From: Hymenobacter tibetensis
Lineage (GTDB): Bacteria; Bacteroidota; Bacteroidia; Cytophagales; Hymenobacteraceae
Direction of reading: 5' to 3'
DNA length: 64,000 bases
NCBI RefSeq assembly: GCF_022827545.1
Contig: NZ_CP094669.1
Location: 1,888,001-1,952,000, forward strand
Positions 43,930-64,000 of the stretch are shown piece after piece; the first letter of the stretch is position 1; each line of letters starts with the position of its first letter. The notes beneath the pieces were generated by a model that was not told the DNA's origin, made no database searches, and saw nothing but the letters and a program-made list of their open reading frames with translations. The position numbers and the translations under genes are program-made.

Positions 43930-46719
43930 CTAGGCGTTAAGCTCTAACTTATCGGCTCTCTGTTTCCCAAACTCTAGAATCTGGTCGATGAAGTCGTAGG
44001 GAGTGTAACCGGCCAGGGCAGTTTGGTGGAAAATGCAGGTGGCAGGCGTCATTCCCGGCAACGAATTTACTTCAATGATCAGTACTTCCACGGCGCCCTG
44101 TTGCCGCACTCGCACAAACGCATCGATGCGGGCATAGCCCTGAATGTCCAGCACTTCGGCCACCCGGCGCAGCTCGGCTTTCACTTCCTCGGAAATGCGC
44201 TGCCGCTCAGCCGGGTCGGGGGCGTAGCGCGCCGGGGTGATGTTCTGGCCTTCGCCGGCCAGAAACTTCTCTTCCAAGCTTAATACTTCGCCGGTGGCAA
44301 GGGCTTCGGAAGCCTCAAACACCTCGATTTCCAGCTCGCCATTAGGGCCCCAATGGGTGAGCAGGCCGCCGGTCACTTCCAAGAAGTGAGCCGCCCCGTC
44401 GCGGGCAATGAGGGTCTCGACCAGGAAAGCCTCTTTTTGCGGAAACTCTTCTTTGAACCCAAGCTGAAGCACGGTTGCATCCGCGGGCATCAGTTCTTCC
44501 TGGTCGCGGAAAATGAGGCGGCTAAAAGCAGCTAGCTCCGCGCGGTTCTTGATTTTCTTGACCGCCGAAGAACAACCGTCGTCGGCAGGCTTGGCAATGA
44601 AAGGATACGGAAACTGCGCTTCCAGGCTTTGGTAGAACCCTTCCGAATCGGCAGTCCATTCCAGACGGGTAGCCATGCGGTGTTCGGCTACTCGCAGACC
44701 GGCTTCGCGCAGCTTGCGGTTGGTTTCGAACTTGTTGATGGTGATGCTGCTGCTTTCGGCACCCGAGCCGTTGTAGGGTAGCCCGTACTGTTCCAGCTCG
44801 CGCTGCAACGCTCCATCTTCGCCTGGGCGGCCATGCAAGGCAATAAATACCTCGCTCACCTCTTCAGCCAATTCCGAAAACGACACGCGCCGCGGCTGCT
44901 CAGTGGGTTGCCCGGCGTACGCACTGGTAATGGCCTCGGCTTCGTGACGGATACGGGTCAGAATAGGGTGCGTCGGGTGGCCTGCTTCGGCCAACTCAAT
45001 TTTCTCTCGAATGTCATCGGCATTGTCCTTGAGCATCACGTTGATGGGCAGCACGTAGAGCCGGAACTCTTGGCTGTTGCCCGTCAGGAACACCGGCACA
45101 GGCTCGTATTTGACGGAGGAGCTAAGCTTTTCGTAGATGTTGCGCCCACTTTCCACTGAAATGTGCCGCTCCGAAGAGTAGCCGCCCATAACCACGGCGA
45201 CTTTGGTACGGGTGCGCTCTTGCTGCTGCCGTGAAGCCACGGCCGTATCCAGTTGCTTCAGCAAACCAGCCAACCGAACCGGCTGCATACCCCCCCGCCG
45301 CCGCGCCGCCAACGACGTGCGAATCAGAAACGTAAGAAACTGCGACGGATTCAGGCCGATTTCGGCAGCTTGGTGAAAGAAAAACGAAGCAGGCAACATG
45401 CCCGACGTGGTATTCGGGTCGTTGAGGAAAATAAAGTTGCCCGAGTCAGTAGCCGTTGCCTCGGAGTCCGTGACGGGCGCTTCGGAACTAATAAATCCGT
45501 CCAAGCGGGCGTACACCTGAAAACCGAAGGTCTCGAACATCTCTTCGCAAGCCTCGCGGATGCGCTGAATGTCGGCTTCGGGTAAGTCGATAGGTGTGAT
45601 TTTGCGTGAGAGGCCCGGCAGGTATTTCGACCGGTAGTCGAACATCTCTTCGCCTTTCACAATTTCGGTGGGCGGCAACGCCAGCGGCTTGCCAGTTGGG
45701 TCTTCCACCACAATGCACGAAAACTCGCGCCCCTGCACGAAGCTCTCTAGCAGTACCTGGGCCTCACCATCCACATTGGTTAGCCGCACGGCCTCCGTGG
45801 TTTGCAACGTGGCGTCTAGCACGCGCAGCAGTTCTTCGGGGTGAGCTACTATCTGCTTTTCAGAGGGCTGAGCAGTGGCGTCAAGGGTACTGGAAGCTAG
45901 AGGAGCGAGGGTGGAAACTTCCACGGGAAGCCCGATACCATCCCGGATGTCCACGAGCTGCTGCACCCACTGGAGCTTGTCCCGTTCGGTGAGCTTCTGC
46001 CACTCCGCCCCAACAACAGTTTTGCGGAACAAACTGCGTTCTACGGCATCCAAGAATTTCGCTACGTCGGCTTCCCGAAGAATACTGACCCCGATGCTAG
46101 AACCCTGACGGGGTGCTTTGAACACCAACGGCAGGCCCAACTCCCGCACCAGATACTGCAGCGTGGCGGCCGGATCGGCAGCGTCCCACTCTTCCACTGA
46201 CAGCACGCGGAAATTAGGCGTCGGCCGGTTCAGGGCTTTCAGTAGCTTCTTTTGTGCCACTTTGTTGATGCCAAATGCCGAGGGCAAAATGCCAGAGCCC
46301 GAGTACGGAATTCCGTACCACTCCAGTAAGCCTTGAATAGCGCCATCTTCGCCACCCGGCCCGTGTAAGGCCAGAAAGGCGAAATCCACTAGCTCGCGCA
46401 GCTCATGCGGCTCCACGCGGCGGCCTACTTCCGCAATAATGCGGTCCTGCTCCGCCTGCGTCAGCTCGCCCAAGCTTTCCAGGTACACTTGCACGGGCAG
46501 GGTGGAAGGCGGCAGCGCCGAAACCGGCGGGTAAAAGTCGCGGATGGTGCCTTTGTAGATGTAGTGCCAGTCGAGCAGGATAAAGTTGCCGCGGCTGTCA
46601 ACAAATATGGGAATGGCCTCGAACAACGACTTGTCGAGGTTATCATATACGGTGCGGCCGCCCGCAAAGGAAATTTCCCGCTCACGCGACGGTCCGCCGA
46701 AGAAGATGCCAATTTTCAT
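43930..46719 (-). CDS. ddl: Tandem (two-copy) D-alanine--D-alanine ligase
   Basis: The start at 46719 gives 929 residues, far above the usual 300-370 for Ddl. Two complete ligase units follow one another. Copy 1 (~1-490) has FFGGPSREREISFAGG, LALHGPGGEDGAIQG, ATP-grasp (FKAPRQGSSIGVSIL) and the metal site FLNDPNTTSGM. Copy 2 (~510-929) has VMGGYSSERHISVESG, IALHGRPGEDGALQRE and the canonical metal site IIEVNSLPGMTPATC. Copy 1 has Asp in place of Glu and keeps the Asn, so its activity is plausible. A linker rich in Arg/Gln joins them. Product: D-Ala-D-Ala for peptidoglycan. The gene is followed by a PASTA gene. Confidence 0.88.
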   Translation of the reverse strand: MKIGIFFGGPSREREISFAGGRTVYDNLDKSLFEAIPIFVDSRGNFILLDWHYIYKGTIRDFYPPVSALPPSTLPVQVYLESLGELTQAEQDRIIAEVGRRVEPHELRELVDFAFLALHGPGGEDGAIQGLLEWYGIPYSGSGILPSAFGINKVAQKKLLKALNRPTPNFRVLSVEEWDAADPAATLQYLVRELGLPLVFKAPRQGSSIGVSILREADVAKFLDAVERSLFRKTVVGAEWQKLTERDKLQWVQQLVDIRDGIGLPVEVSTLAPLASSTLDATAQPSEKQIVAHPEELLRVLDATLQTTEAVRLTNVDGEAQVLLESFVQGREFSCIVVEDPTGKPLALPPTEIVKGEEMFDYRSKYLPGLSRKITPIDLPEADIQRIREACEEMFETFGFQVYARLDGFISSEAPVTDSEATATDSGNFIFLNDPNTTSGMLPASFFFHQAAEIGLNPSQFLTFLIRTSLAARRRGGMQPVRLAGLLKQLDTAVASRQQQERTRTKVAVVMGGYSSERHISVESGRNIYEKLSSSVKYEPVPVFLTGNSQEFRLYVLPINVMLKDNADDIREKIELAEAGHPTHPILTRIRHEAEAITSAYAGQPTEQPRRVSFSELAEEVSEVFIALHGRPGEDGALQRELEQYGLPYNGSGAESSSITINKFETNRKLREAGLRVAEHRMATRLEWTADSEGFYQSLEAQFPYPFIAKPADDGCSSAVKKIKNRAELAAFSRLIFRDQEELMPADATVLQLGFKEEFPQKEAFLVETLIARDGAAHFLEVTGGLLTHWGPNGELEIEVFEASEALATGEVLSLEEKFLAGEGQNITPARYAPDPAERQRISEEVKAELRRVAEVLDIQGYARIDAFVRVRQQGAVEVLIIEVNSLPGMTPATCIFHQTALAGYTPYDFIDQILEFGKQRADKLELNA

Positions 46720-46925
46720 AGATAGCACAAAGGTAAGGGGAATCTAGAACGCAGTACCACTGTGTGGCTGGCTACACGTACGCCTAGCAGATTGGTTCCG
46801 CTGGCTGGGTTGCTGGCTTTGTGTGGGTGAAAAAGAACGGGGTGCCATGCCGGATACAGGCGGCTGATTCGCACTACTTGCTACATTCGTGCCGTACAAG
46901 GCCCAAACATCATCCCCATTCTCAT

Positions 46926-51164: not shown

Positions 51165-52409
51165 CTAGCTTTTACGGGGCGGTTGCGGCCGAAAAATAGG
51201 GTGTAGAAACCTAAGATCTGGCGCTTTTCCAATAGAAAAAAAGAGCACCGTGCATGAGACGATAGTGGCCATGATAACGACTAAGGTGACGATCTGAATG
51301 ATGTGGCCACTGGGTATATCACGCTGTGCGGGTAGCGTAGCCAACATGGCGGACCTCAGTTCCTTGGGTATCATGATGCTCATGAAAGCTATATCGAACT
51401 GCGGTGCCTACTTGTCGGTGGTAGTCAGCACCATTGGGATGCGCACCAGAAAAAGCAGCACCGTCATGCTCACACCGAGAGCTATCGGATAGCCGTTGTC
51501 GAGGACGAAAGACATGCCCACGTGCACAAATAAAAACGTGCGTAGTAGAAAAACGATTTTCGAGGAGAAGTCCTGTTCGGTGGCGGTCAGCTCCACGTGC
51601 CGAGCTGGCAAATAGTGCTGCAGGCCACCAGGACGCAGTAGCATATTGCTGAGCGTGATAGAAAAAAAACAGCACCGCAATGGGCCCGCTGAAACGAAGC
51701 AGTTAGACTGCGCCATAAAGCAAAAAGACGAAGGCCGGTGTCTAGAACCGCGTTTTGAGCAAGGTGGACACCTGGGTCATCAGTACCAACCACAGGTAGC
51801 CACACCCAACTCCAGCTAATACCGCTACAATCAGAGAAGAAAGAATTTCGGTGAACAACGTTACAACACTGAACGAAGAGCCCGAGTAAAAGCTAATGAG
51901 GGCTATAGGAATAGCCAGGGTGAAGATGTCGCTTAGCGCCGACTCCATAACCAGCGTCGTGGAGGTCTGCGGCAGGATATTCACCTTGCGGACCAACGTG
52001 GTGACAACGGCGGAAGACGTGCCCCCGAGAATGGTGCCCAATATAAGTGCGCTAATAAAGACTAGCTCTTCGAAAAGCTGACCCAGTGTGGCCACTACCA
52101 ACGTGGTAACCACAAAGTTGATAGTCGTAAGCTCCAGCGTGCAGCGCAATGCGGCGCGTAGCTGTTTCAGCCGTACTTCCAACCCACTTTCAAACAAGAC
52201 AAAGACCAGCACCAGGTTGGAAAACACCCGGCCTGCCCAAACGAGGCTGGGTCGAGGAGTTGGGTGATGGACCCAAGCAGCATACCCACCACATCGGGAA
52301 TTTTGGTTCGGTTAAGTAGTTCGGCTAGGTAATGACCCAGGAATATAAGGAACCCGCTTAGAATGAACAGGATAGGGGTAGTCATAGGCAAGGCGTAACG
52401 TAGCTGCAA
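51165..52409 (-). pseudogene. Cation/proton antiporter (CPA family), broken by several frameshifts
   Basis: Four minus-strand fragments in shifting frames together spell one antiporter. 52409-52167 carries the first helices (TPILFILSGFLIFLGHYLAE, then IPDVVGMLLG). 52227-51742 carries LVLVFVLFESGLEVRLKQLR, FISALILGTILGGTSSAVVT, and SALSDIFTLAIPIALISFYS. 51716-51408 carries FLLRTFLFVHVGMSFVLDNG. 51383-51165 has the last helices. No single frame encodes all. An intact protein would have about 400 residues with 10-13 helices, exchanging Na+ or K+ for H+. At least three shifts are needed, so random error at one site cannot explain it all. It is probably a real pseudogene unless sequence quality is poor here. 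Confidence 0.8.
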
Positions 52410-52764
52410 AAAAGTAGACTATAAGTAGCACCGCGGGTGCAACTGTGCATGGGGGCCAGTTAAGATGCTCCGGCTGCTTGGTTTCTAGCTACGCAAAACG
52501 GCTTTATTCCATACAAACGAGCAAGTTGCGTGGCGGATCAACTGCAGTGCTTTTACCTATGAAAGCCACTGTGCCAAAGCGGTGAAGGTGGCCGGATCTG
52601 TATGTTAGTGAGTTGAACAAGAAGCGGGATAGGCAGGACATTTTTCGCGCTTTAATGTTTTTTAACGTTGAGTTAATTGGACTCTAATGCCTGTTTGGCT
52701 TTTTTGTAAGATATCATCTGGTGAAAGTTGCTGTTTTATACCTGCGCTTTCCCATCCTCTGTCT
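52410..52764. other. Leader region of otsA
   Basis: About 355 bp without a gene. An AT-rich part at 52640-52690 holds an inverted repeat TTAAC-GTTGA-GTTAA (52662-52676) and is the most likely promoter area for otsA. Confidence 0.4.
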
Positions 52765-54372
52765 ATGGCTAAAACCATCATTGTTTCCAACCGTTTGCCT
52801 GTAAAAGTGCTCCGTACGGACGACAAGCTGTCTTTTCAACCAAGTGAAGGAGGCCTGGCTACTGGGCTTGGCTCCATCTACCGCTCCGGCGACAATGTGT
52901 GGGTTGGCTGGCCCGGCTTAACAGTAGAAGGGGCAGAAGAACAGGACCTTGTAGTAGAGGAGTTGCGTGCCAATAGCATGTCGCCAGTGTTCTTGACGAA
53001 AGCAGAGTTTCGGGACTACCACGAAGGATTCTGCAATGAAACGCTTTGGCCCACTTTCCACTATTTCGCGCAGTATGCCGTTTTCGATGATGCTACTTGG
53101 GCTGCCTATGTAGCCGTCAACGAGAAATTCTGTCAGGCGGTGCTAGAGCAAGCCGGCCCCGAGGATACTATCTGGGTGCACGACTACCAATTGCTGCTGC
53201 TACCTAGTCTGCTTCGCCAGGCCCGCCCCCAGGCCACTATTGGGTTCTTCTTGCACATTCCATTCCCGTCGCAGGAGCTGATTCGGGTGCTTCCGTGGCG
53301 CAAGGAACTGCTGCAAGGAATGTTAGGTGCTGATCTGATTGGCTTCCATACGTTCAGCTACATGCGGCACTTTCTGAATGCTGTGTCGCAACTGCTAGGA
53401 TTGACCAACCAGAACGGGCAGATCGAAACAGCTGACCGTACTATCTTGGTTGACACCTTCCCTTTGGGCATCGACTACGACCGGTACGCCACGGCGGCCG
53501 TCTCGGCACCGGCACAGGAGTATGCGCATACCTATCGTGAGGCATTGCGTGGCGCCCGCATCATCTTGTCTATTGATCGGCTAGACTATACCAAAGGCAT
53601 TGCCGAGCGGCTGCGGGCTTTTGAACTGCTGCTGGAGCGCTATCCTGAGTGGCGCGAATACGTGAGCTTGGTTATGGTGGTAGTTCCCTCCCGCGACCAA
53701 GTGGAAACGTACAGAAGGCTGAAAGAGGAAATTGATGAGCTAGTGGGGCGTATCAATGCCAAGTATTGCACCATCAGTTGGCGGCCCGTCTATTATTTCT
53801 ACCGATCCTTACCCCTTGAGGAATTGGCCGCTTGGTACCAATTGGCAGATATTGGATTGGTTACGCCCATGCGGGACGGTATGAACTTGGTGGCCAAAGA
53901 GTTTGTGGCAAGCAAAGCCGACCAGAGCGGAGTGCTTATCCTTAGTGAGCGAGCTGGCGCGGCCCGAGAACTAGCCGATGCGCTTCTAATCAATCCTACG
54001 GATATTGGGCAGTTAGCAGAGGCGCTCCATGTAGCTTTGGTGATGCCTGAAGAAGAGCAGCGCCAGCGCATGTCGAACATGCAAAACCTTGTGCAGCAGT
54101 ATGATGTATTTGCTTGGAGCCGCCTATTTATAGAACGGCTTGAGTACGCAAAACACAAGCAATTGGCTTTGGCTACCGCTCAGCTCGATGCGAGAAATGC
54201 TCAGTATCTGGTGCGTGATTACCAGCAAGCCAAGCAACGGTTGTTGTTACTGGACTACGATGGTACCCTGGTACCCTTCCTTGCCAACCCGCAGCGTGCC
54301 CGACCCGACGCCGAACTGCTGAACTTGCTTAAGGCGCTGACTAACGATGGCCACCCAGGTCGCCATCATTAG
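52765..54372 (+). CDS. otsA: Trehalose-6-phosphate synthase (OtsA) with N-terminal part of fused OtsB
   Basis: The ATG at 52765 gives 535 residues. OtsA (about 1-465) joins UDP-glucose and glucose-6-phosphate. It shows IIVSNRLPVKVLRT, VWVGWPG, WVHDYQLLLLPSLLRQARPQ, IDRLDYTKGIAERLRAF and MRDGMNLVAKEFVASKADQS. The final ~50 residues start an OtsB phosphatase: LLLLDYDGTLVPFLANPQRA. The frame then ends after ALTNDGHPGRHH instead of going on into OtsB, while the frame one base over continues it from 54347. This TPS-TPP fusion is thus interrupted by a +1 shift, real or an error. A codon at 52687 would extend the N terminus but is unlike the family. Confidence 0.9.
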   Translation: MAKTIIVSNRLPVKVLRTDDKLSFQPSEGGLATGLGSIYRSGDNVWVGWPGLTVEGAEEQDLVVEELRANSMSPVFLTKAEFRDYHEGFCNETLWPTFHYFAQYAVFDDATWAAYVAVNEKFCQAVLEQAGPEDTIWVHDYQLLLLPSLLRQARPQATIGFFLHIPFPSQELIRVLPWRKELLQGMLGADLIGFHTFSYMRHFLNAVSQLLGLTNQNGQIETADRTILVDTFPLGIDYDRYATAAVSAPAQEYAHTYREALRGARIILSIDRLDYTKGIAERLRAFELLLERYPEWREYVSLVMVVVPSRDQVETYRRLKEEIDELVGRINAKYCTISWRPVYYFYRSLPLEELAAWYQLADIGLVTPMRDGMNLVAKEFVASKADQSGVLILSERAGAARELADALLINPTDIGQLAEALHVALVMPEEEQRQRMSNMQNLVQQYDVFAWSRLFIERLEYAKHKQLALATAQLDARNAQYLVRDYQQAKQRLLLLDYDGTLVPFLANPQRARPDAELLNLLKALTNDGHPGRHH

Positions 54373-54949
54373 TGGCCGCGACCGGCATACGCTTACTAAA
54401 TGGTTCGGTGACTTGCCCATCGGCCTGATTGCAGAACATGGCGCGTGGTTGCGGCCACCGAACGAGGAATGGTCGTTGATCCATACGTTGCGGTCCGAAT
54501 GGCAACAGGAGATGCAGCCTGTTATGGAGTTGTATGTCGGGCGGACTGCGGGGTCATACATCGAGCAGAAAGACTTTTCACTGGCGTGGCACTTCCGCCG
54601 CGCCGACCCCGAACTGGGGCTGGTGCGCGCCCGCGAACTGATGAGCCACCTCACGTTTCTAGCCTCCAATACGGACCTTCAAGTGGTGGAAGGCGACAAA
54701 GTGGTGGAAGTACGCAATGCCGGAATCCATAAAGGAGCAGCCGCGTTGCGCTGGATCAGTCTGTACCAGCCTGATTACATACTGGCCCTAGGCAACGACC
54801 ACACCGATGAGGATATGTTCCGAGCAGTTCCATCTGATGCCTACACCATCAAAGTGGGCATCTCTCCCCGTTCAGAAGCGCGCCACCATGTTCCGCGCAT
54901 CAATGATGCGCGCCGCCTACTGCAACGACTGTTAGCACCTGCCAACTAA
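54347..54949 (+). CDS. otsB: Trehalose-6-phosphate phosphatase (OtsB) C-terminal part, frame-shifted from otsA
   Basis: The 200 residues contain the rest of the HAD-type phosphatase: VAIISGRDRHTLTKWFGD, GLIAEHGAWLRPPNEEWSLI, WHFRRADPELGLVRAREL, VVEVRNAGIHKGAAALRWIS, and ALGNDHTDEDMFRAVPSDAY. Motif I (DYDGT) lies in the otsA frame, so this frame alone lacks the nucleophile and would be inactive. The apparent ATG overlaps otsA by 26 bp. One base removed or added near 54345-54360 would restore a single OtsA-OtsB protein of about 730 residues, a fusion known in the Bacteroidota. Trehalose protects cells from drying and osmotic stress. Confidence 0.8.
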   Translation: MATQVAIISGRDRHTLTKWFGDLPIGLIAEHGAWLRPPNEEWSLIHTLRSEWQQEMQPVMELYVGRTAGSYIEQKDFSLAWHFRRADPELGLVRARELMSHLTFLASNTDLQVVEGDKVVEVRNAGIHKGAAALRWISLYQPDYILALGNDHTDEDMFRAVPSDAYTIKVGISPRSEARHHVPRINDARRLLQRLLAPAN

Positions 54950-55000: not shown

Positions 55001-55765
55001 CTAGTAAGTGAACAGCAGGGGGGGTAGGTCGTTAGGGGTGTGTACTATTATGTCTCTGGCTGTGGAAGAAGACGGATATGATACGGCCGCGCTGTAAGCA
55101 GGGCTGAGAAGGACACTGCTGGTTGTCCAGTTGCTAGCTGTGGCCAGTAGTTCGCCTTGCATCACGTGCAAACCGTTTAGAGAAGGCACAGACTGCAAAT
55201 CGTCATCAATGCCTTTGCTGGTAGCCTTCACCAACGCTTCCTTGCGCGTCCAGAGTTGATAGAACGCAACGGAAGGAGTGGCACTCTGCGCGATGTACGC
55301 CTGCTCTCGCAAGCTGAAACACGTTTCACTGATGTCTTGGTAACGGAAGGCGCCATCTACCTTTTCTATATCTACTCCTATGGAGTCGAGGGCAATGCCA
55401 ATCAGTGTGCAGCCAGAAGTGTATGAAATAGAAAAATAAAGCGGTTCCAAGCCAACAAGCATGGGCTTGCTGTTGAAGCCACCTGCGAATTCTAAAGCCT
55501 GGCCGTGCTGTTTGCGGTATGCTCCAAGCAGAATGCGCAAAGCACATTTGCTGATTACATACTGCTCTCGTTTTTCCAACTGATGATAGCTTCCTGCTTT
55601 GGCTATCTCGCTTTCACAAAGGATGTGCTCTGCGTGGTGGACTAGGTTTTTATGAGTGCTTGTCTCTACAGCAAACAGGTGCACGCTGTTGCTGTAGAGT
55701 TTGTCGGGAAAACGGGTGCTAGGTGTGGGGATGGTGGTGTTGCACAACACCGTTACGGCAGGCAT
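55001..55765 (-). CDS. Sfp-type 4'-phosphopantetheinyl transferase
   Basis: The enzyme attaches the phosphopantetheine arm to the carrier domains of the adjacent PKS and NRPS. The 254-residue protein shows the Sfp motifs: GGFNSKPMLVGLEPLYFSIS near the middle, magnesium site GVDIEKVDGAF, and WTRKEALVKATSKGIDDDL. It lies 31 bp downstream of the NRPS stop codon on the same strand and is likely part of the operon, which gives the cluster its own activation enzyme. Confidence 0.93.
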   Translation of the reverse strand: MPAVTVLCNTTIPTPSTRFPDKLYSNSVHLFAVETSTHKNLVHHAEHILCESEIAKAGSYHQLEKREQYVISKCALRILLGAYRKQHGQALEFAGGFNSKPMLVGLEPLYFSISYTSGCTLIGIALDSIGVDIEKVDGAFRYQDISETCFSLREQAYIAQSATPSVAFYQLWTRKEALVKATSKGIDDDLQSVPSLNGLHVMQGELLATASNWTTSSVLLSPAYSAAVSYPSSSTARDIIVHTPNDLPPLLFTY

Positions 55766-55796
55766 GCTGAAGTTATTGGCACGGACGTTCAGCTAT

Positions 55797-58700
55797 TCAA
55801 ACTCTATCCAAGGCGGCTTGTAGTACTCGGCCTGCTTCTACATCGTTCGGCGGGGCAAACATGTAGTTGTGGTCGCCGGGTACCTCATGGATATCAATTC
55901 CTCCTAGCGCAAATTCCTTCCAACCCAAATAAACAAAGTCGTCCATGTAGTACGTCTTTTCCTTGGCTCGGAACAAATCAATTTTCACCTGCTGAGGTAC
56001 GATTTGATAGGTATTGGCTGCTGTGCTCTGTGCTTCTCCCATTTTGTGGGGGTAGCCGTACGTGATTTCATAATGCTTCACTTTGTCGTATTTAAATCTA
56101 TCCGCAAGCCTTCCCAACGCTTCCCATTTATACGCCATAGTGTCTTTCGGATTTTTGTAGAGCAGCACGAAATTGTAAGCTAACCTCTTGACCGAAGACG
56201 CAATGTGTTTGATGGAATTGGCAACTCCTGACTTGAATTGCTTGGGTTGGTCTGCGTACGTATCGAACATAGCCAACGTCTCCACGGGCTTTCCAGCAGC
56301 CTGCAATTGCTTGGCCATCTCGAAGGCGATGATACCGCCAAAGGAGTAGCCTGCCAGTGCATAAGGGCCATTCGGATTTTGGGCTTGGATGGCTGCTATA
56401 TAGTGGGCTGCCATAGCTTCTACACTGTCGTGCGGCTCATCGATGCCGTTGAGGCCTTGGGCTTGTAAGCCGTACACCGGCTGGTCGGGGGCCATGTTCT
56501 TGGCCAATGCATTGAACAAGAGTACATTCAATCCTCCGCCGTGCACAATGTAGAGTGGTGTTTTGGTGCCGTGCGGCCTGATAGGAACCAGTGAGTTCCA
56601 GGTGATAAACTTGCTGTCTAGCTGTAATACAGCAGCAAGCTTCTCGACAGTGGAACTCTCGAACAGCGTGGCTAAGGGTAGCTTTTTGCCGGTTTCTTTC
56701 TCTAAATGCGCCATCACCTGAACGGCAATTAGGGAGTGGCCACCTATTGTAAAGAAATCATCGAATATGCTGATGGTGTCTAGCTGTAAGTACTTCTTCC
56801 AGATAGCAACTACCATTTGCTCTACGTCCGTTCTCGGCTCCCCGTGCTCAACGGTGGTATGGCGAGGAGTAGGCGCGGCAACCTGTAGCAGCGCATTTCT
56901 GTCGACCTTGCCGTTCAGCGTTCTGGGGATGGATTCAACAACAATAAAATCGTTGGGAATCATGTATGCCGGAAGTTTATCGGCGAGAACCTTTCTCCAA
57001 ATGGAAATGCCAGCGTCTTGGTGCTGAGTGGCAACGGCAAGCACTATGTAGGCGCGCAAACGCGTCAGGCCGTAGCTGTCTTCTTTGGCCACTACTACGG
57101 CTTCCTTTATTTCGGAAATGGAGGTAAGCAGATATTCTATTTCACCCGGCTCGATTCGGTATCCTCGCACTTTGATCTGCTGATCGGCCCGGCCTAGATA
57201 CTGGATTTCGCCGGTATCTATCAGTTTGGCTAAGTCGCCGGTTCGGTATAGTTTACTGGCTACATCCGGTGAGAATGGATTGGCAATAAATCTTTCCCGG
57301 TTTAACTCTGGGCGGTTTAAGTAGCCGTTGGCTACACCGGTGCCGGCAATGTATAACTCACCGGCCGTGCCGGGCGCAACCAGACTGCCTGACTCATCCA
57401 GAATGTAGAATTGAGTGTTGGCAATAGGCTTGCCTATCGTAATTACTTGGGTTGGGGCCGTGACTTGCTTTACCGAGGAATAGATAGTGGTTTCAGTTGG
57501 GCCATACATATTCCATAATGCCTTGCAGCGGCTAGCAAGACGTTCCGCAAGTTCATTGGACAATGCTTCGCCGCCGCTGATAGCCTGCAAAGGATACGGT
57601 TCTATCCAGCCTGCATCGAGCATCATGCGCCAGGTTGAGGGCGTACCCTGCAGGATAGTAACCGCTTCCTCTTCGACCAGTTGTAACAGCAGCTGGCCGT
57701 CCTTGGTGGCGTGGGTTTCGGCAAGTACTACGGTGGCACCACTAATCAGTGGTAGGAAAAGCTCTAACCCAGCTATGTCAAACGAGATGGTAGTAATTGC
57801 CAGTAGCTTATCGTCTGTCGATACGTTGATTGCCTCCTTGATGCTACGCAGCAGATTCACCATGCTGTGGTGCTTCACCTGCACGCCCTTCGGTAACCCT
57901 GTCGAGCCCGACGTGTAGAGAACATACAGAACGGCCTCATCCGGTATAACAGTTAAAACAGCAGAAGTCGGATGTTGGCTTGCCTCCAGCAGAGCGTCCT
58001 CGATGCGGTAGGTTTCCGCCCCAGCAGTAAGAACAGTACCGCTTACTTCTTTAGACGAGACAAGCAGTCTTGCAGCTGAATCACGCAGCATAAACTCCAG
58101 CCTGTCATCGGGGTAGGTTGGGTCGAGAGGGAGGTACGCCGCCCCGCATTTTATAACGGCCAGCAGCGTTACGACCAGTTCAAGAGAACGGTCAAGTGCA
58201 ACACCAATAATGTCTCCGCTCTTAATCCCTTTCTGAAGGAAGAAATGAGCAAGTTGATTTGACTTGGTGTGTAAGTCAGAATAAGACAATGTAGCGCTAC
58301 GGAATTTGATTGCCGTTTTATGGGGCGCTGCAACTACTTGATTGGCAATAAGAGCAGGTAGGGATATGCCTTTCGGGTAATCAACAGTTGTATCGTTTAG
58401 CAGCGAATATGCAGTTGGTACTTTGTTGGCGCTGTAGCTTTCCCGCTGCACCTTTTTCTGGCTGGGAGCAGTGGTAACCTCTTGTAACAGCAATTCAAAT
58501 TCGGCCATCATGCGGCCAATCCTTGTTTCCGTAAACAGCGCCGTATTGTAAGACCACTCTAAAACCACGTGGTTTTCCGATCCGCTTGCGTTCAAAAACA
58601 AGTCGAAGGTTTCATAAGCCCGAGGGTTTGTGCGCACCTCATACCTTAATTGGTGGAATGCCACGCCATTTGCAAGGCCCATATCCACGTTGAAAACAAC

Positions 58701-59843
58701 GGGAACCAAGGGAATCCTGCTGGCATCCCTGGCTACGTTGATGTTCTTCAACAAACTCCCAAACGTGAGTCCCTGATGGTCGTAGGCATCGAGCAGATAG
58801 GCTCTGCGTTGTTGCAGAAAGCCCTGAAACGTGTCCTCGGGGCCGAAGTGGCTCTTCAATGGTAACAGGTTGACGCAGTGCCCTATCAGGTGCTGGCTGC
58901 CAGTGGTCGGCTGGCCCGCCGCGGGTAACCCCACCACTACCGTTTCCTGACCGGTTAGGCGGTGCAGCAACAGCTCAAAACTTGCCAGCAATGTCGTGAC
59001 AAAGCTGCAACCCGCTTCCACCCCCACTTTTTTTAGCTTGGCAACTAGGGTGCTACTGAGGGGAAAGTCTAGGCGGGTACCTTGGTACGTGCGAAAGGCT
59101 GGCCGGGGAAAATCAGTTGGTAGCTCTAGCACCGGCACCGAGTCGTGGTACTGTTGTATCCAGAATTGCTCGATCTGGGCGTATTCCTCACTGCTCCGGA
59201 ACAGTGCTTGCTCGTGGGCGTACGTGCTAAATTCTGAAGCTGGAGGCAACACAGGCCGCAAGCCTTGACTGTAAAACGAATAAAGCTTGCCTACATCCTG
59301 TAAGAGAATGCCAAGCGACCATCCATCACACACAATGTGATGAACGGTAAGGACAAGCTGGTGCTCTTCGCTGCCCAGCCGAAGCAAGGAGGCTTTCAGC
59401 AGGGGACCATGCACCAAGTCGAACACGTGCTGCGCATCCTGCTCGATGAAGTTGCTAACGACACGAGTTTGCTCTGCCGCTGGTAGGCTCGCAATGTCTT
59501 GGTAGGCCAGGTCCGTAGCCACGGTAGCAAACACGCACATATGCTTCCCGTTGGCGCTGAAAACAGAGCGTAGGGCCTCGTGTCGGTTCACGGTTTGCTG
59601 CAAGGCCTGTTGCATAGCCGCCTGATTGAGCGGCCCGGTGAACCGCACCGACAACGACTGGTTGTATGCCCGGTTTGCATCGTCGCCGCCCAGCAGGCTG
59701 GCCAGCCATATTTCAGCCTGCGGATCGGTAATCGGTACCAGCCGAGTAATCTCCGGCTCCATAAAAGGGTCGAAGTCCACTGCCAAAGCTTGTGATCCTG
59801 CGGTGCGTTGCGGTGCTTGAATATCGGTTAACATATGCTTCAA
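55797..59843 (-). CDS. Non-ribosomal peptide synthetase module C-A-T-TE
   Basis: The 1348-residue protein has four domains. Condensation (~35-450): HHIVCDG at 168-174. Adenylation (~490-990): YTSGSTGLPKG, SFDIAGLELFLPL, YGPTETTIYSS, ELYIAGTGVANGY, YRTGDLAK, NGKVDRN. A hand alignment to GrsA gives the code DILQIGMIYK, close to the known glycine code DILQLGLIWK. Carrier: GGHSL, Ser1037. Thioesterase: GYSFGG, Ser1167, with Asp in FDTYAD and His in GDHNYMF, so release is by hydrolysis or cyclisation. It follows the PKS/aminotransferase gene by 105 bp and precedes the Sfp enzyme by 31 bp. The module is complete for one extension and chain release. Confidence 0.95.
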   Translation of the reverse strand: MKHMLTDIQAPQRTAGSQALAVDFDPFMEPEITRLVPITDPQAEIWLASLLGGDDANRAYNQSLSVRFTGPLNQAAMQQALQQTVNRHEALRSVFSANGKHMCVFATVATDLAYQDIASLPAAEQTRVVSNFIEQDAQHVFDLVHGPLLKASLLRLGSEEHQLVLTVHHIVCDGWSLGILLQDVGKLYSFYSQGLRPVLPPASEFSTYAHEQALFRSSEEYAQIEQFWIQQYHDSVPVLELPTDFPRPAFRTYQGTRLDFPLSSTLVAKLKKVGVEAGCSFVTTLLASFELLLHRLTGQETVVVGLPAAGQPTTGSQHLIGHCVNLLPLKSHFGPEDTFQGFLQQRRAYLLDAYDHQGLTFGSLLKNINVARDASRIPLVPVVFNVDMGLANGVAFHQLRYEVRTNPRAYETFDLFLNASGSENHVVLEWSYNTALFTETRIGRMMAEFELLLQEVTTAPSQKKVQRESYSANKVPTAYSLLNDTTVDYPKGISLPALIANQVVAAPHKTAIKFRSATLSYSDLHTKSNQLAHFFLQKGIKSGDIIGVALDRSLELVVTLLAVIKCGAAYLPLDPTYPDDRLEFMLRDSAARLLVSSKEVSGTVLTAGAETYRIEDALLEASQHPTSAVLTVIPDEAVLYVLYTSGSTGLPKGVQVKHHSMVNLLRSIKEAINVSTDDKLLAITTISFDIAGLELFLPLISGATVVLAETHATKDGQLLLQLVEEEAVTILQGTPSTWRMMLDAGWIEPYPLQAISGGEALSNELAERLASRCKALWNMYGPTETTIYSSVKQVTAPTQVITIGKPIANTQFYILDESGSLVAPGTAGELYIAGTGVANGYLNRPELNRERFIANPFSPDVASKLYRTGDLAKLIDTGEIQYLGRADQQIKVRGYRIEPGEIEYLLTSISEIKEAVVVAKEDSYGLTRLRAYIVLAVATQHQDAGISIWRKVLADKLPAYMIPNDFIVVESIPRTLNGKVDRNALLQVAAPTPRHTTVEHGEPRTDVEQMVVAIWKKYLQLDTISIFDDFFTIGGHSLIAVQVMAHLEKETGKKLPLATLFESSTVEKLAAVLQLDSKFITWNSLVPIRPHGTKTPLYIVHGGGLNVLLFNALAKNMAPDQPVYGLQAQGLNGIDEPHDSVEAMAAHYIAAIQAQNPNGPYALAGYSFGGIIAFEMAKQLQAAGKPVETLAMFDTYADQPKQFKSGVANSIKHIASSVKRLAYNFVLLYKNPKDTMAYKWEALGRLADRFKYDKVKHYEITYGYPHKMGEAQSTAANTYQIVPQQVKIDLFRAKEKTYYMDDFVYLGWKEFALGGIDIHEVPGDHNYMFAPPNDVEAGRVLQAALDRV

Positions 59844-59948
59844 CTTTTCTAGCGCGTGTTAGAAGTACACGCTAGATGTCATGTATTACCTGCTTATAAA
59901 AAGAGTGTGAGTAATTCCTTTTTCTCAATGGAAATAGGAATTGGTGTT

Positions 59949-62900
59949 TTAGTTGATATCAATCTTTAAATACTTGCCAGGTATTTCAGGATTGGATATA
60001 TACCAAGCCGGATTGCCGTTATGGTCTCTTCCTAATCTTGCGCCTGGTACCGGCGGTTGATTTACAGAAAGCAGGTTTTGAAGCTTAGGAGTGGGTTTTG
60101 GATGGTTGGGGCTCTCTGGAAAGAAGCCGGCCTGTATCATCTCGTTCACACTTTCCTGAAACAAAGAAATAAGCAGCTCTATTTCCTCGAGGGTGTGCGC
60201 TTCAGTCATGAAGCAAGGAAATCCGTCCCAAATATGAATTCCTTTTTCGCGCATTAGCGTGAATAGTAATTCGCTGTATGGAATTTCTTTTTTGAATTTA
60301 ATTTTCCACAAAGAGCCGAATTGAGCTGCGAAAGCGGGAAGCCGTTCTTCTTTGAATATCTGGTTGATTCCCTCCACCAATTGGTTGGTCTTTGCTGTGA
60401 GGGTTTCTTGCAAGGCCGGGCCTTTCTCTTTCATATAGAGCAGGGTGGCTTTGGTCGCGGCTAGGGCGAGAGGATGTCGCACGAAGGTGCCCGCAAAATA
60501 CGTGACGCCTACCTCGGGGTAAGAAGCGTCATCATATTGCCAAAAGCCGCCATCCAGCGCGTCCATGAACTTCTTGTGCCCCGCAATGACGCCAATAGGT
60601 AAGCCACCGCCTACCACTTTGCCATAAGATGCCAGATCAGCTTTGATACCGAAGAGTGCTTGGGCGCCGCCAGGGTGCATGCGGAAGCCGGTAATCACCT
60701 CATCAAAGATGAGCGCAGTGCCAGACTGCTTGGTTATGGCTCGGACCTGCTTGAGGAATTCGATAGGCACAAACTCCGGCCGCCGACTCTGTACAGGCTC
60801 CACCAATACGGCTGCTAGCTCGTGGGCCCTCTCCTTGATAATGCGCAGGCTTTCATCGGTGCCATAGTCCAGGATTAGCATGTTGTGTACGGCTTCGGGC
60901 ATAATGCCGGGGGCAGCCGGATACGACTTCAGTTTCTTGGTTCCGCGTACCAGCACTTCGTCGTTGATGCCGTGATAGGAGCCAGAGAAGGCCACAATGA
61001 GGGAACGGCCAGTTACCATACGGGCTACGCGCATGGTACCTAGCACCGCCTCGGAGCCAGTGCTGCACAAGGCCACTCGGTCGAAGCCGGTGAACTCACA
61101 CAACAATGCACTGACCTCTCCAGCCAACTCGTGCTGAGGACCCACCTCGTAGCCGGTTTCTATTTGTTGGTGCAGGGCATCCGTAACCACGGTGGGTTGG
61201 TGGCCGAGCATAGAGGAGCCGAACCCATTGAGTGCATCAATGTACTGGTTGCCATCAATATCCCAGAGCTTGCTGCCCTTCGAACGGTTAACTACCAATG
61301 GATACACCACCTCTTTGGTAAGCGGCTTGAAGCCTGATACCACGCGCGGGTCGGCCATGTGGGCGCGGTGCTGCTGCGAATACGCCTTGCTACCCCGGGT
61401 TTTCTGATTGTAACGAGAGGTAAGCTGCCACACAAAATCCTGCTGTAGCTCACTTAGCTCCGTTGCTTGCCGCTCGATGCGGGCAGTTGCACCGAAGGGT
61501 TTCTTCAATTCCACTTCTTCCTCCGGCGTAAGTTCCGGGCTGCTGCCTGCAGGTTGCTCTGGAAGTGCGCTAGCCGTGCTGGAAAGAATAGCTGTTTCCA
61601 GTGTGTAGGATGGGGCAGCAGAGGCTGGCAATGCATTAGCACTTGCTGTTGGTACTGCTTGTGCGGAGCCTTGAAGCAACGTGACTTGCTGAGCCAGCAG
61701 ATGCAGCTGTTGGGCTACCAAGCCCAGAATGGTGTCATTGGCGGGTACGGCAGGAACTTGCGCAGGTGGTAAGATGGCAGCAGCTACAGGTGCCAGAACT
61801 GGCTGCGCAGCGGGTGCCTGATGAATTTCCGGAGGCAATTGGCTATCCAGATACGAGACCAAAGCCTCTAGAGTAGAGTACTCTTGGTTGAGCTGCCGGA
61901 AGGTGATGGGAAGCTTGAACTCTTTCTTTAACGTGATAGCTACCTGCGTGATAAGCAAGGAGTCGAGTCCTATTTCCAAGAGAGTCATGGTAGGGGTGAC
62001 TCCGTCCATCTCAATACCAGAGGCGTCTTCCAGTATGGTCTTTACTTTGCCAAGAAGACTGTCTTTTCTCGAAACAGCAGGTGGCAGAGAGGGGCGAGGG
62101 GCGGCAACTAAGGGAGCAGAAACAATAGGAGTAGGCACAATCGGCGGGGTAGGAGCAATAGGGGTGGAAGCAACTGCTGGTTCAACCCAGCAGTATTTCC
62201 GGTCGAAGGCGTAAGTAGGCAGGGCTAGTCGAGCCCTGGTCTGGTTGGCGTAGAAGTTCGGCCAATTGGGTTCCAGCCCGTGCAGCCATAAATGGCCGAG
62301 GGCTTCCAGCAAGGCTGGCTGTTCTTGCAGGGGCTCTTTTTGGCCGCTGAAGCTGGAGTGCACCGCTCCGGGTCGGGTGCCGCGTTGCTGTCGGGCCAGC
62401 GTGGCTAGCGTATTGCCCGGACCTACTTCCAGCAGTAGCGGTTGCTCTTGTTGAAAAATAGTTTCTAGCGCATCGGCGAAGCGCACTGTCAGTCGCAGAT
62501 GTGAAGCCCAGTACCGTGGGTCGGTGGCTTGGGCGTCGGTGAGCCAGGTTCCGCTAACAGTAGATACCACCGGCTTCTGCGGCCTGCTCAAACTGATGCC
62601 CTCCACCACTTGCTGAAAATCAGCCACGATAGAGTTCATCATGTAGGAATGAAAGGCGTGGCTGGTAGCCAACAGGCGGTTCGGGACCTTTTGCTCGTCG
62701 AGCAGCAACGCAAACGTGGCCACATGTTCGTCGGCGCCCGCTACCACGCAGTGTACGCGGCTGTTGATAGCCGCAACCGATAGGTCTTCGGGTAGAAGCG
62801 CAAGTAGCTTTTCCGCTTCCATGCGTACGGATAGCATGCTGCCCCGCGGAAGCTCGCTCACCATGCGCCCTCGCGTAGCCACCAAGGATAGAGCGTCGGC

Positions 62901-64000
62901 CAAGGAAAACACACCAGCTAAATGAGCTGCCACAAATTCTCCGATGCTATGGCCGCACAAGACGGAAGGGCTGATGCCCCAACTCATCCAGAGAGTAGCC
63001 AAGGCATATTCCGTGACGAAGAGAGCAGGCTGCGCGTAGCGGGTATTTTTCAGCGTGTCTTCTTCCGCACTCGTACTGGCGGCGGGATAGATAGTATGCC
63101 GTATATCAGTGCCCAGGTGCGGCAGCAGTAAATCGGCGCAGGTATCCACCGCCTGCCGATATACAGCTTCCGTTTCATACAGCGTGCGGCCCATCTGTAG
63201 GTATTGCGCGCCCTGGCCCGGAAACAGAAATACCACTTCTCCGGGTAGTTGTTGCAGCGTTTGGGCGTCGGTGGCTGACGGTTGGGCGCGAAGCTTGGCT
63301 GCCAACTCCGCAGGCGTAGCGGCTACTGCAAAGCGCCGATGCGCAAAACGGCCCCGGGTCTTTTGCAGCGTATAGGCCACATCTGCTACAGTAAGCAAGG
63401 GCTCCTGCTCCAAGTAATCAGCTAGGTTGCTGGCATAAGCTTCTCGGCTGCCTACCGATTTGGCCGACCACGTAACCAACTGCGCTGCCCGACTTCCTGA
63501 TGACGGGGGGGGCACGTTTTCAAACTCTTCGAGTATCACGTGCACGTTGGTGCCCCCAACGCCAAACGAGCTAACGCCTGCCCGGCGCACCTCCGAGGAT
63601 TGCCAATCAGTGAGTGCGGTGGTTATAAAGAAAGGACTCGCGGCAAAATCAATACTAGGATTGGGTGCATTGAAGCCCAACGACGGTGGCAACTGCTTGT
63701 GGTGCAGCGCCAAGGTAGCTTTTATCAAGCCTGCTACACCGGCTGCTGGGGTCAGGTGGCCCATGTTACTCTTGATGGAACCCAGGGCACAGCTCTGTTT
63801 TGCTACCTGGTCTCCAAACGCCATGGTCAAGCCTTCTATCTCAATTGGGTCGCCGAGGGGAGTAGCTGTACCGTGAGCTTCCACATAACCGATAGAGGTG
63901 GCTGCCACGCCCGCGTCTTGGAGAGCCATAGTGATGGCGCCGGCCTGCCCAGCTGCACTAGGAGCCGTGAAGCTGCCTTTGCCGCGGCCGTCGTTATTAA
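59949..64000 (-). CDS. Hybrid PKS module (KS-AT-ACP) fused to class III aminotransferase, 5' end outside window
   Basis: The frame runs through the right edge; the Met codon at 63929 is internal to the KS. Numbering from it, KS motifs are EAHGTATPLGDPIE and SNMGHLTPAAG; the KS active Cys lies outside the window. AT: GHSIGE (Ser328) with HAFH at 424-427, the malonyl-CoA pattern. ACP: GLDSL, Ser657. A helical linker rich in Gln/Leu (VAQQLHLLAQQVTLLQG) follows. The class III aminotransferase (~840-1270) has PLP Lys1104 in SYGKVVGGGLP, plus STGSEAVLGTMRVAR and IFDEVITGFRM. No ketoreductase is visible, which fits transamination of the beta-keto group. The tail (GARLGRDHNGNPAWYI) resembles those of ItuA/McyE-type proteins. 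Confidence 0.93.
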   Translation of the reverse strand, partial: NNDGRGKGSFTAPSAAGQAGAITMALQDAGVAATSIGYVEAHGTATPLGDPIEIEGLTMAFGDQVAKQSCALGSIKSNMGHLTPAAGVAGLIKATLALHHKQLPPSLGFNAPNPSIDFAASPFFITTALTDWQSSEVRRAGVSSFGVGGTNVHVILEEFENVPPPSSGSRAAQLVTWSAKSVGSREAYASNLADYLEQEPLLTVADVAYTLQKTRGRFAHRRFAVAATPAELAAKLRAQPSATDAQTLQQLPGEVVFLFPGQGAQYLQMGRTLYETEAVYRQAVDTCADLLLPHLGTDIRHTIYPAASTSAEEDTLKNTRYAQPALFVTEYALATLWMSWGISPSVLCGHSIGEFVAAHLAGVFSLADALSLVATRGRMVSELPRGSMLSVRMEAEKLLALLPEDLSVAAINSRVHCVVAGADEHVATFALLLDEQKVPNRLLATSHAFHSYMMNSIVADFQQVVEGISLSRPQKPVVSTVSGTWLTDAQATDPRYWASHLRLTVRFADALETIFQQEQPLLLEVGPGNTLATLARQQRGTRPGAVHSSFSGQKEPLQEQPALLEALGHLWLHGLEPNWPNFYANQTRARLALPTYAFDRKYCWVEPAVASTPIAPTPPIVPTPIVSAPLVAAPRPSLPPAVSRKDSLLGKVKTILEDASGIEMDGVTPTMTLLEIGLDSLLITQVAITLKKEFKLPITFRQLNQEYSTLEALVSYLDSQLPPEIHQAPAAQPVLAPVAAAILPPAQVPAVPANDTILGLVAQQLHLLAQQVTLLQGSAQAVPTASANALPASAAPSYTLETAILSSTASALPEQPAGSSPELTPEEEVELKKPFGATARIERQATELSELQQDFVWQLTSRYNQKTRGSKAYSQQHRAHMADPRVVSGFKPLTKEVVYPLVVNRSKGSKLWDIDGNQYIDALNGFGSSMLGHQPTVVTDALHQQIETGYEVGPQHELAGEVSALLCEFTGFDRVALCSTGSEAVLGTMRVARMVTGRSLIVAFSGSYHGINDEVLVRGTKKLKSYPAAPGIMPEAVHNMLILDYGTDESLRIIKERAHELAAVLVEPVQSRRPEFVPIEFLKQVRAITKQSGTALIFDEVITGFRMHPGGAQALFGIKADLASYGKVVGGGLPIGVIAGHKKFMDALDGGFWQYDDASYPEVGVTYFAGTFVRHPLALAATKATLLYMKEKGPALQETLTAKTNQLVEGINQIFKEERLPAFAAQFGSLWKIKFKKEIPYSELLFTLMREKGIHIWDGFPCFMTEAHTLEEIELLISLFQESVNEMIQAGFFPESPNHPKPTPKLQNLLSVNQPPVPGARLGRDHNGNPAWYISNPEIPGKYLKIDIN

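Follow-up and report, generated by a model that had tools for sequence, protein, structure and literature searches.

A Pfam domain search of the window, the whole 64,000-nucleotide stretch of Hymenobacter tibetensis DNA that was analysed (G000:C1:1888001-1952000; genome of 6.3 Mb), and of the DNA beyond its end revealed three minus-strand genes predicted to form the assembly line [A-T-KS-AT-T-AMT]-[C-A-T-TE]-[PPTase]. The open frame of gene 1 (59949..64000, minus strand) crosses the window edge, its in-window part holding a partial KS, AT, T and AMT. Completed with the DNA past the window end, gene 1 has an ATG start and encodes 2224 residues (window-equivalent 59949-66623, minus strand; L007:9949-16623, minus strand, in the extended locus), with matches to AMP-binding (residues 17 to 362), AMP-binding_C (421 to 495), T (525 to 587), KS (611 to 984), AT (1131 to 1409), a second T, and Aminotran_3 (1773 to 2131). 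The 5′ part beyond the edge contributes only an A-T loading module, comprising adenylation domain A1 (about 65139-66575) and the first T (about 64863-65051), both outside the window; no condensation (C) domain was found N-terminal to A1. The KS (PF00109/PF02801; about 63672-64793) is cut by the edge, its C-terminal part lying at 63672..64000, and is followed by the AT (PF00698; 62397..63233), an ACP-type second carrier (second PF00550 stretch; 61899..62096, approximate borders) and the PLP class III aminotransferase AMT (PF00202; 60231..61307). A divergent response regulator/histidine kinase pair lies upstream of gene 1.

Gene 2 (55797..59843, minus strand; 1348 aa, TTG start as listed) encodes a C domain (PF00668; 58446..59738), a second adenylation domain, A2 (PF00501/PF13193; 56907..58343), a carrier (PF00550; 56628..56813) and a thioesterase, TE (PF00975; 55854..56558). 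Gene 3 (55001..55765, minus strand; 254 aa) encodes an Sfp-type phosphopantetheinyl transferase (PPTase; PF01648, ACPS/Sfp-type). The motifs are intact in gene 1 (KS Cys and both His, AT GHSIGEF, T GGNS and GLDSL, AMT Lys in YGK) and in gene 2 (C HHIVCDG, T GGHS, TE Ser/Asp/His). Pfam E-values ranged from 1e-41 to 1e-86 for A, KS, AT, AMT and C and were 1.9e-28 for the TE and 5.7e-15 for the PPTase, thereby excluding chance matches. KR was absent from the families matched by genes 1 and 2. The initial annotation had described a KS-AT-ACP module running into a PLP aminotransferase without a ketoreductase, then a C-A-T-TE module and a PPTase, in a Bacteroidota host, and Pfam and the motifs bear this out; the PLP lysine is unmutated, and full-length gene 1 has no ketoreductase in its 5′ part by Pfam. 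That annotation had also placed the loading and any earlier modules outside the window. Loading does lie there, in the form of one A-T module only.

Elsewhere in the window, a trehalose-phosphate synthase and phosphatase occupy overlapping plus-strand frames (52687-54372 and 54347-54949, together 52687-54949), the Trehalose_PPase match being split between both (profile positions 1-35 and 37-214), as if a fused gene had been frameshifted. On the minus strand, 43930-46728 encodes a 932-aa protein with tandem D-Ala-D-Ala ligase-like halves (two Dala_Dala_lig_N stretches), and 51319-52227 holds short frames, one of which matches part of a sodium/hydrogen exchanger (profile 45-198 of 375) and has the look of a broken antiporter gene.

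Further modules acting in trans were ruled out by a genome search, which found a single C domain and six KS matches, this KS alone lying in a long multidomain frame and the other five in frames of 401 to 439 aa. The same search detected no MbtH. The predicted line is thus complete with two synthetase genes and a PPTase, and since the genome carries two ACPS-family genes, gene 3 is not the sole candidate for the latter role.

The code of A1, DVQFMAQVV, and its nearest structures point to a proline-like substrate. The A1 core scored highest, in single stretches, against TycB1 (120.6 bits) and GrsB1 (116.2 bits), which we take to be proline-activating domains, while LgrA chains reached about 113 bits only as the sum of two domains (57 and 53). 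The whole A1 domain gave 386 bits with TycB1 in one stretch. The alignment gives DVQLIAHVV as the code of TycB1; A1 equals it at six of nine positions and has Q at position 322, where TycB1 and GrsB1 have H. The beta-homoarginine type of product, exemplified by TAN-1057, was dropped, since the A1 code is of the type for proline. Among the 19 Hymenobacter lines aligned, 11 have the code DVQFMAQVV and 15 combine V236 with Q239, residues common in proline codes according to a survey (PMC12283262); the other four read DVLY[IS]GVIV (three) and DALFMGQVV (one). A1 is therefore predicted to load a proline-like amino acid, which may differ from proline given Q322, and the chain would start with a free amine because no C domain precedes A1.

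The AT motif HAFH presumably marks malonyl specificity. The AMT aligned with the MycA structure 6KFM at 415.9 bits, the highest score of any chain other than MycA being 176.5, and all 58 relatives that were aligned retain its PLP lysine. This MycA-group, class III enzyme stands after a carrier and before a C domain without an intervening KR. Here the C domain is on the next gene, whereas AMT and C are fused in a Chitinophagaceae MAG (L022) and in Sulfitobacter (L046). MycA itself aminates a beta-ketothioester with Gln as the donor, as stated by Milano et al. (PMC3870968).

The closest structures to A2 (code DILQIGMIY) are 4ZXH and 5U89, which we take to be glycine domains. A code DILQLGMIWK has been reported for Gly, and DILQLG[MLV][IV]W, from which the window differs by few residues, is the code in 16 of 18 Hymenobacter lines. 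Position 331 is Y only in the window and in G101, and W in the other lines, which leaves room for a small residue other than Gly. A2 thus appears glycine-like, and its residue may differ from Gly. The TE motifs would be compatible with linear as well as cyclic release.

A search of 120 Hymenobacter genomes recovered gene 1, whole or in pieces, from 23. Nineteen carriers have a single near-full-length match and G013 has two matches in one frame; the gene is interrupted in G118 and in pieces in G109 and G091. The flank comparison covered 20 of these 23 carriers, omitting G095, G109 and G091. Gene 1 recurred in 20/20 (as a fragment in G118), gene 2 in 19/20 (missing from G058) and the PPTase in 15/20, five genomes having none nearby. 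The PPTase is directly next in 12 of the 15, and a second, divergent NRPS intervenes in G013, G019 and G106. This NRPS (L011 20808-27821; also beside the line in G019 and G106) has about 2337 residues and, as read in L011, two DAFWLGGTF codes, presumably for Val; a second, shorter PPTase accompanies it in all three genomes. About eight flank contexts were found among the 20 genomes, with other families common only within groups of like flanks, apart from a small ORF present in both G027 and G055. The unit thus consists of the two synthetase genes plus, in most genomes, the PPTase; because the flanks vary and only the line genes recur, it is delimited by this comparison, which also suggests that it moves between genomic places. 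No flanking family is common across contexts, so the unit contains no receptor or transporter, and a siderophore role was rejected on that ground, the flanks being only partly annotated. The dN/dS ratios were 0.04 to 0.25 in 15 of 16 comparisons (eight pairs by two genes); the remaining one was saturated, and dS was above 1 in several cases.

A contig scan across genomes left 78 loci of 204 confirmed stretches, most of them from Bacteroidota, with distant versions in Rhizobium, Sulfitobacter, and planctomycete and gammaproteobacterial MAGs. A, KS, AT and AMT follow in this order in one frame in 52 of the 78; 38 of these 52 have a C-A-TE frame fused or within 1.5 kb downstream, and 32 a same-strand PPTase match further downstream; the contig ends early in many of the remaining loci. 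Of 395 evenly drawn Bacteroidota genomes, 23 had a match at E ≤ 1e-250, near full length in 13 cases. The gene order is supported by L022, a single 3289-aa frame reading A-T-KS-AT-T-AMT-C-A-T-TE in a stretch that ends inside the TE, and AMT-C-A are fused in Sulfitobacter and in eight Rhizobium-type loci. Mean identity to the window was 0.57 (A1), 0.60 (T2), 0.73 (KS) and 0.76 (AMT) for 18 Hymenobacter lines and 0.42, 0.44, 0.61 and 0.64, respectively, for 39 other lines, A1 being the least conserved domain on average. Its code varies by lineage, several Pedobacter having DLTKIGHIG and Flavobacteriales MAGs having DVQIFSQVV. A2 is mostly DALWLGGTF in Flavobacteriales MAGs and thus is not always glycine-like. 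In gene 2 of one Pedobacter locus (L015), a methyltransferase separates parts of A2. In Tamlana sedimentorum, the two synthetase genes are separated by a cupin-8/JmjC-type gene (L013 16594-17484), possibly for a hydroxylating step. Downstream of the line, a gene resembling zinc-dependent phospholipase C is found at the same place, near 4.8-6.1 kb, in L169, L171 and L173; these three loci come from related genomes (G496, G378 and G480) of a single genus other than Hymenobacter.

Polysaccharide genes adjoin several non-Hymenobacter relatives: GT2, GT2, Branch and DegT in Pedobacter, a pyruvyl transferase and a GINT1-like glycosyltransferase in Rhizobium, and a flippase and a GINT1-like gene in Sulfitobacter, with further cases in Niabella, Belliella, Flavobacterium algicola, Aquiflexum and Cognataquiflexum. 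The GINT1-like genes lie at L051 22583-24184 (Rhizobium) and L046 21459-23045 (Sulfitobacter). These neighbours were chosen by eye, 20 among the 174 neighbour ORFs listed. Among 15 non-Hymenobacter carriers, several of which (e.g., G268, G287 and G339) match part of gene 1 only, a Poly_export gene was found no more than 10 kb from the line in one (G378) and no more than 30 kb away in three; for the 20 Hymenobacter carriers there was none within 30 kb and one within 60 kb (G002, about 40 kb). Glycosyltransferase family 2 accounted for 6 of the 127 flank ORFs listed (127 of 176) versus at most 2 of the 129 control ORFs listed (129 of 283) from arbitrary places in the same genomes, where it was not among the 25 families listed. 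By these two counts, a link to exopolysaccharide or surface decoration is not robust, and Pedobacter and Rhizobium are the only genera for which we retain it as a lead.

In the proposed assembly, the PPTase encoded by gene 3 would arm the carriers, and the A-T didomain would load a proline-like amino acid with its amine free. KS-AT would add malonate, affording a gamma-amino-beta-keto thioester. The MycA-type aminotransferase would then replace the ketone by an amine, so that the chain becomes a beta,gamma-diamino acyl group; with a proline starter, this group would be 3-amino-3-(pyrrolidin-2-yl)propanoyl. The C domain of gene 2 would couple it to the glycine-like residue, and the TE would release either the linear acid (C9H17N3O3, [M+H]+ 216.134) or the lactam (C9H15N3O2, [M+H]+ 198.124). 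On balance, a proline-like starter extended by malonate, transaminated, joined to a glycine-like residue and released by the TE as a beta,gamma-diamino acyl-glycine is probably what the line encodes, and our best reading of the predicted product is an amine counterpart of detoxinine. The low dN/dS ratios speak for this reading; against it stand the missing MbtH, the residues at positions 322 of A1 and 331 of A2, the varying starter code in the genus (4 of 19 lines without V236 plus Q239) and the damaged lines of G058 and G118. The beta-amination logic of the initial annotation is supported by the kinship of the AMT with MycA and the missing KR, as are a glycine-like second A domain and TE release by the code, the nearest structures and the TE motifs. 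Its beta-amino-acyl-glycine product holds as the main inference and is refined, through the proline-like loading module, to a beta,gamma-diamino acyl group.

The identity of the starter leaves some latitude. The same chemistry on another small cyclic amino acid, such as azetidine-2-carboxylate or a hydroxyproline, would account for the Q, rather than H, at position 322 of A1; a reported azetidine code, DMQLVSQQVK, likewise has Q322 and shares both S301 and Q322 with the Flavobacteriales code DVQIFSQVV. The window code nevertheless agrees with TycB1 at six of nine positions and with DMQLVSQQV at four of nine, and the three-gene unit brings no added enzyme for making such a starter, so that we regard this variant as unlikely. 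Less probable still is that the AMT acts as an aminomutase, moving an amine instead of adding one; its relative HemL works in this way with an alpha-amino ketone. The KS product from an amino acid starter would be an alpha-amino ketone, which has the geometry of the HemL substrate, and HemL is the nearest structural family after MycA. However, the AMT is much nearer to MycA, a Gln-using transaminase, and the secondary nitrogen of proline forms no PLP aldimine, yet the AMT is equally kept, lysine included, in the proline-type lines.

Two further explanations concern the line as a whole. Its patchy presence in the genus and the damaged copies in G058 and G118 would fit a decaying line that makes nothing in this strain; we consider this improbable, the window motifs being intact and gene 1 giving a dN/dS of 0.08 against the closest line, near saturation. 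There is likewise little chance that it is an ordinary variant belonging to an already known product family: a search of the open-access literature found no amino-acid-started line of this layout with an assigned product, although this is weak evidence of absence. Returning to the diamino acyl-glycine reading, we tentatively propose, as a possibility that we hold in some doubt, a widespread class of minimal two-synthetase lines for vicinal-diamine dipeptides. Its members would retain KS, AT, AMT and the second module while lineages swap the loading A domain (Pro-, Asn- and Val-like codes), giving an X-[CH(NH2)CH2CO]-Gly family. Such a class, if true, would provide amine equivalents of statine or detoxinine units. 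If the diamino acyl-glycine reading is right, the line would offer a very small, complete and apparently movable route to a beta,gamma-diamino acid, natural exchange of the loading residue would give a ready analogue series, and the two synthetase genes and the PPTase are few enough for direct expression.

The line is a variant of known aminotransferase lines, with a predicted amino acid starter. Mycosubtilin and iturin lines start from a fatty acid. The Hymenobacter line shares with them (MycA/ItuA) a KS-AT-carrier-AMT order without KR before the C domain and an AMT nearest to MycA 6KFM, but it starts with an amino acid A-T didomain; in place of an acyl-ligase-activated fatty acid starter we found A1, nearest to TycB1 and GrsB1. 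The flavipulchrin line of Pseudoalteromonas (PMC12819058) similarly performs a C2 extension and C-3 amination followed by glycine, but differs by a fatty acid starter introduced via a Cs domain and by a heptapeptide ring. The layout was catalogued in 2013 for Pedobacter heparinus C6XWU5 by Milano et al. as A-CP-KS-AT-CP-PLP1, predicted string Nrp-Mal-Gly-Pk (Table 2), and related layouts are listed there for Salinisphaera and Thiorhodococcus (PMC3870968). The order A-CP-KS-AT-CP-Aminotran_3 with a glycine module next recurs here, the likeness being one of layout, and the C6XWU5 entry, as catalogued, carries no product. The candidacy as an undescribed system in the initial annotation is weakened by this precedent and by the wide occurrence of the layout in Bacteroidota. 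Most of the named Pedobacter relatives that we compared carry a different starter code (e.g., DLTKIGHIG), and L015 has its methyltransferase within A2. Detoxin, rimosamide and miramide lines (PMC9503745) also extend proline by malonate with a C-A-T-TE partner, but use a ketoreductase to form a beta-hydroxy unit and place Ile or Val before the proline. In the Hymenobacter line, a proline-type A domain, as predicted from its code and nearest structures, likewise precedes a malonate-adding KS; genes 1 and 2 lack by Pfam the KR for a beta-hydroxy (Det) unit, an AMT stands in its place, and no residue precedes the starter.
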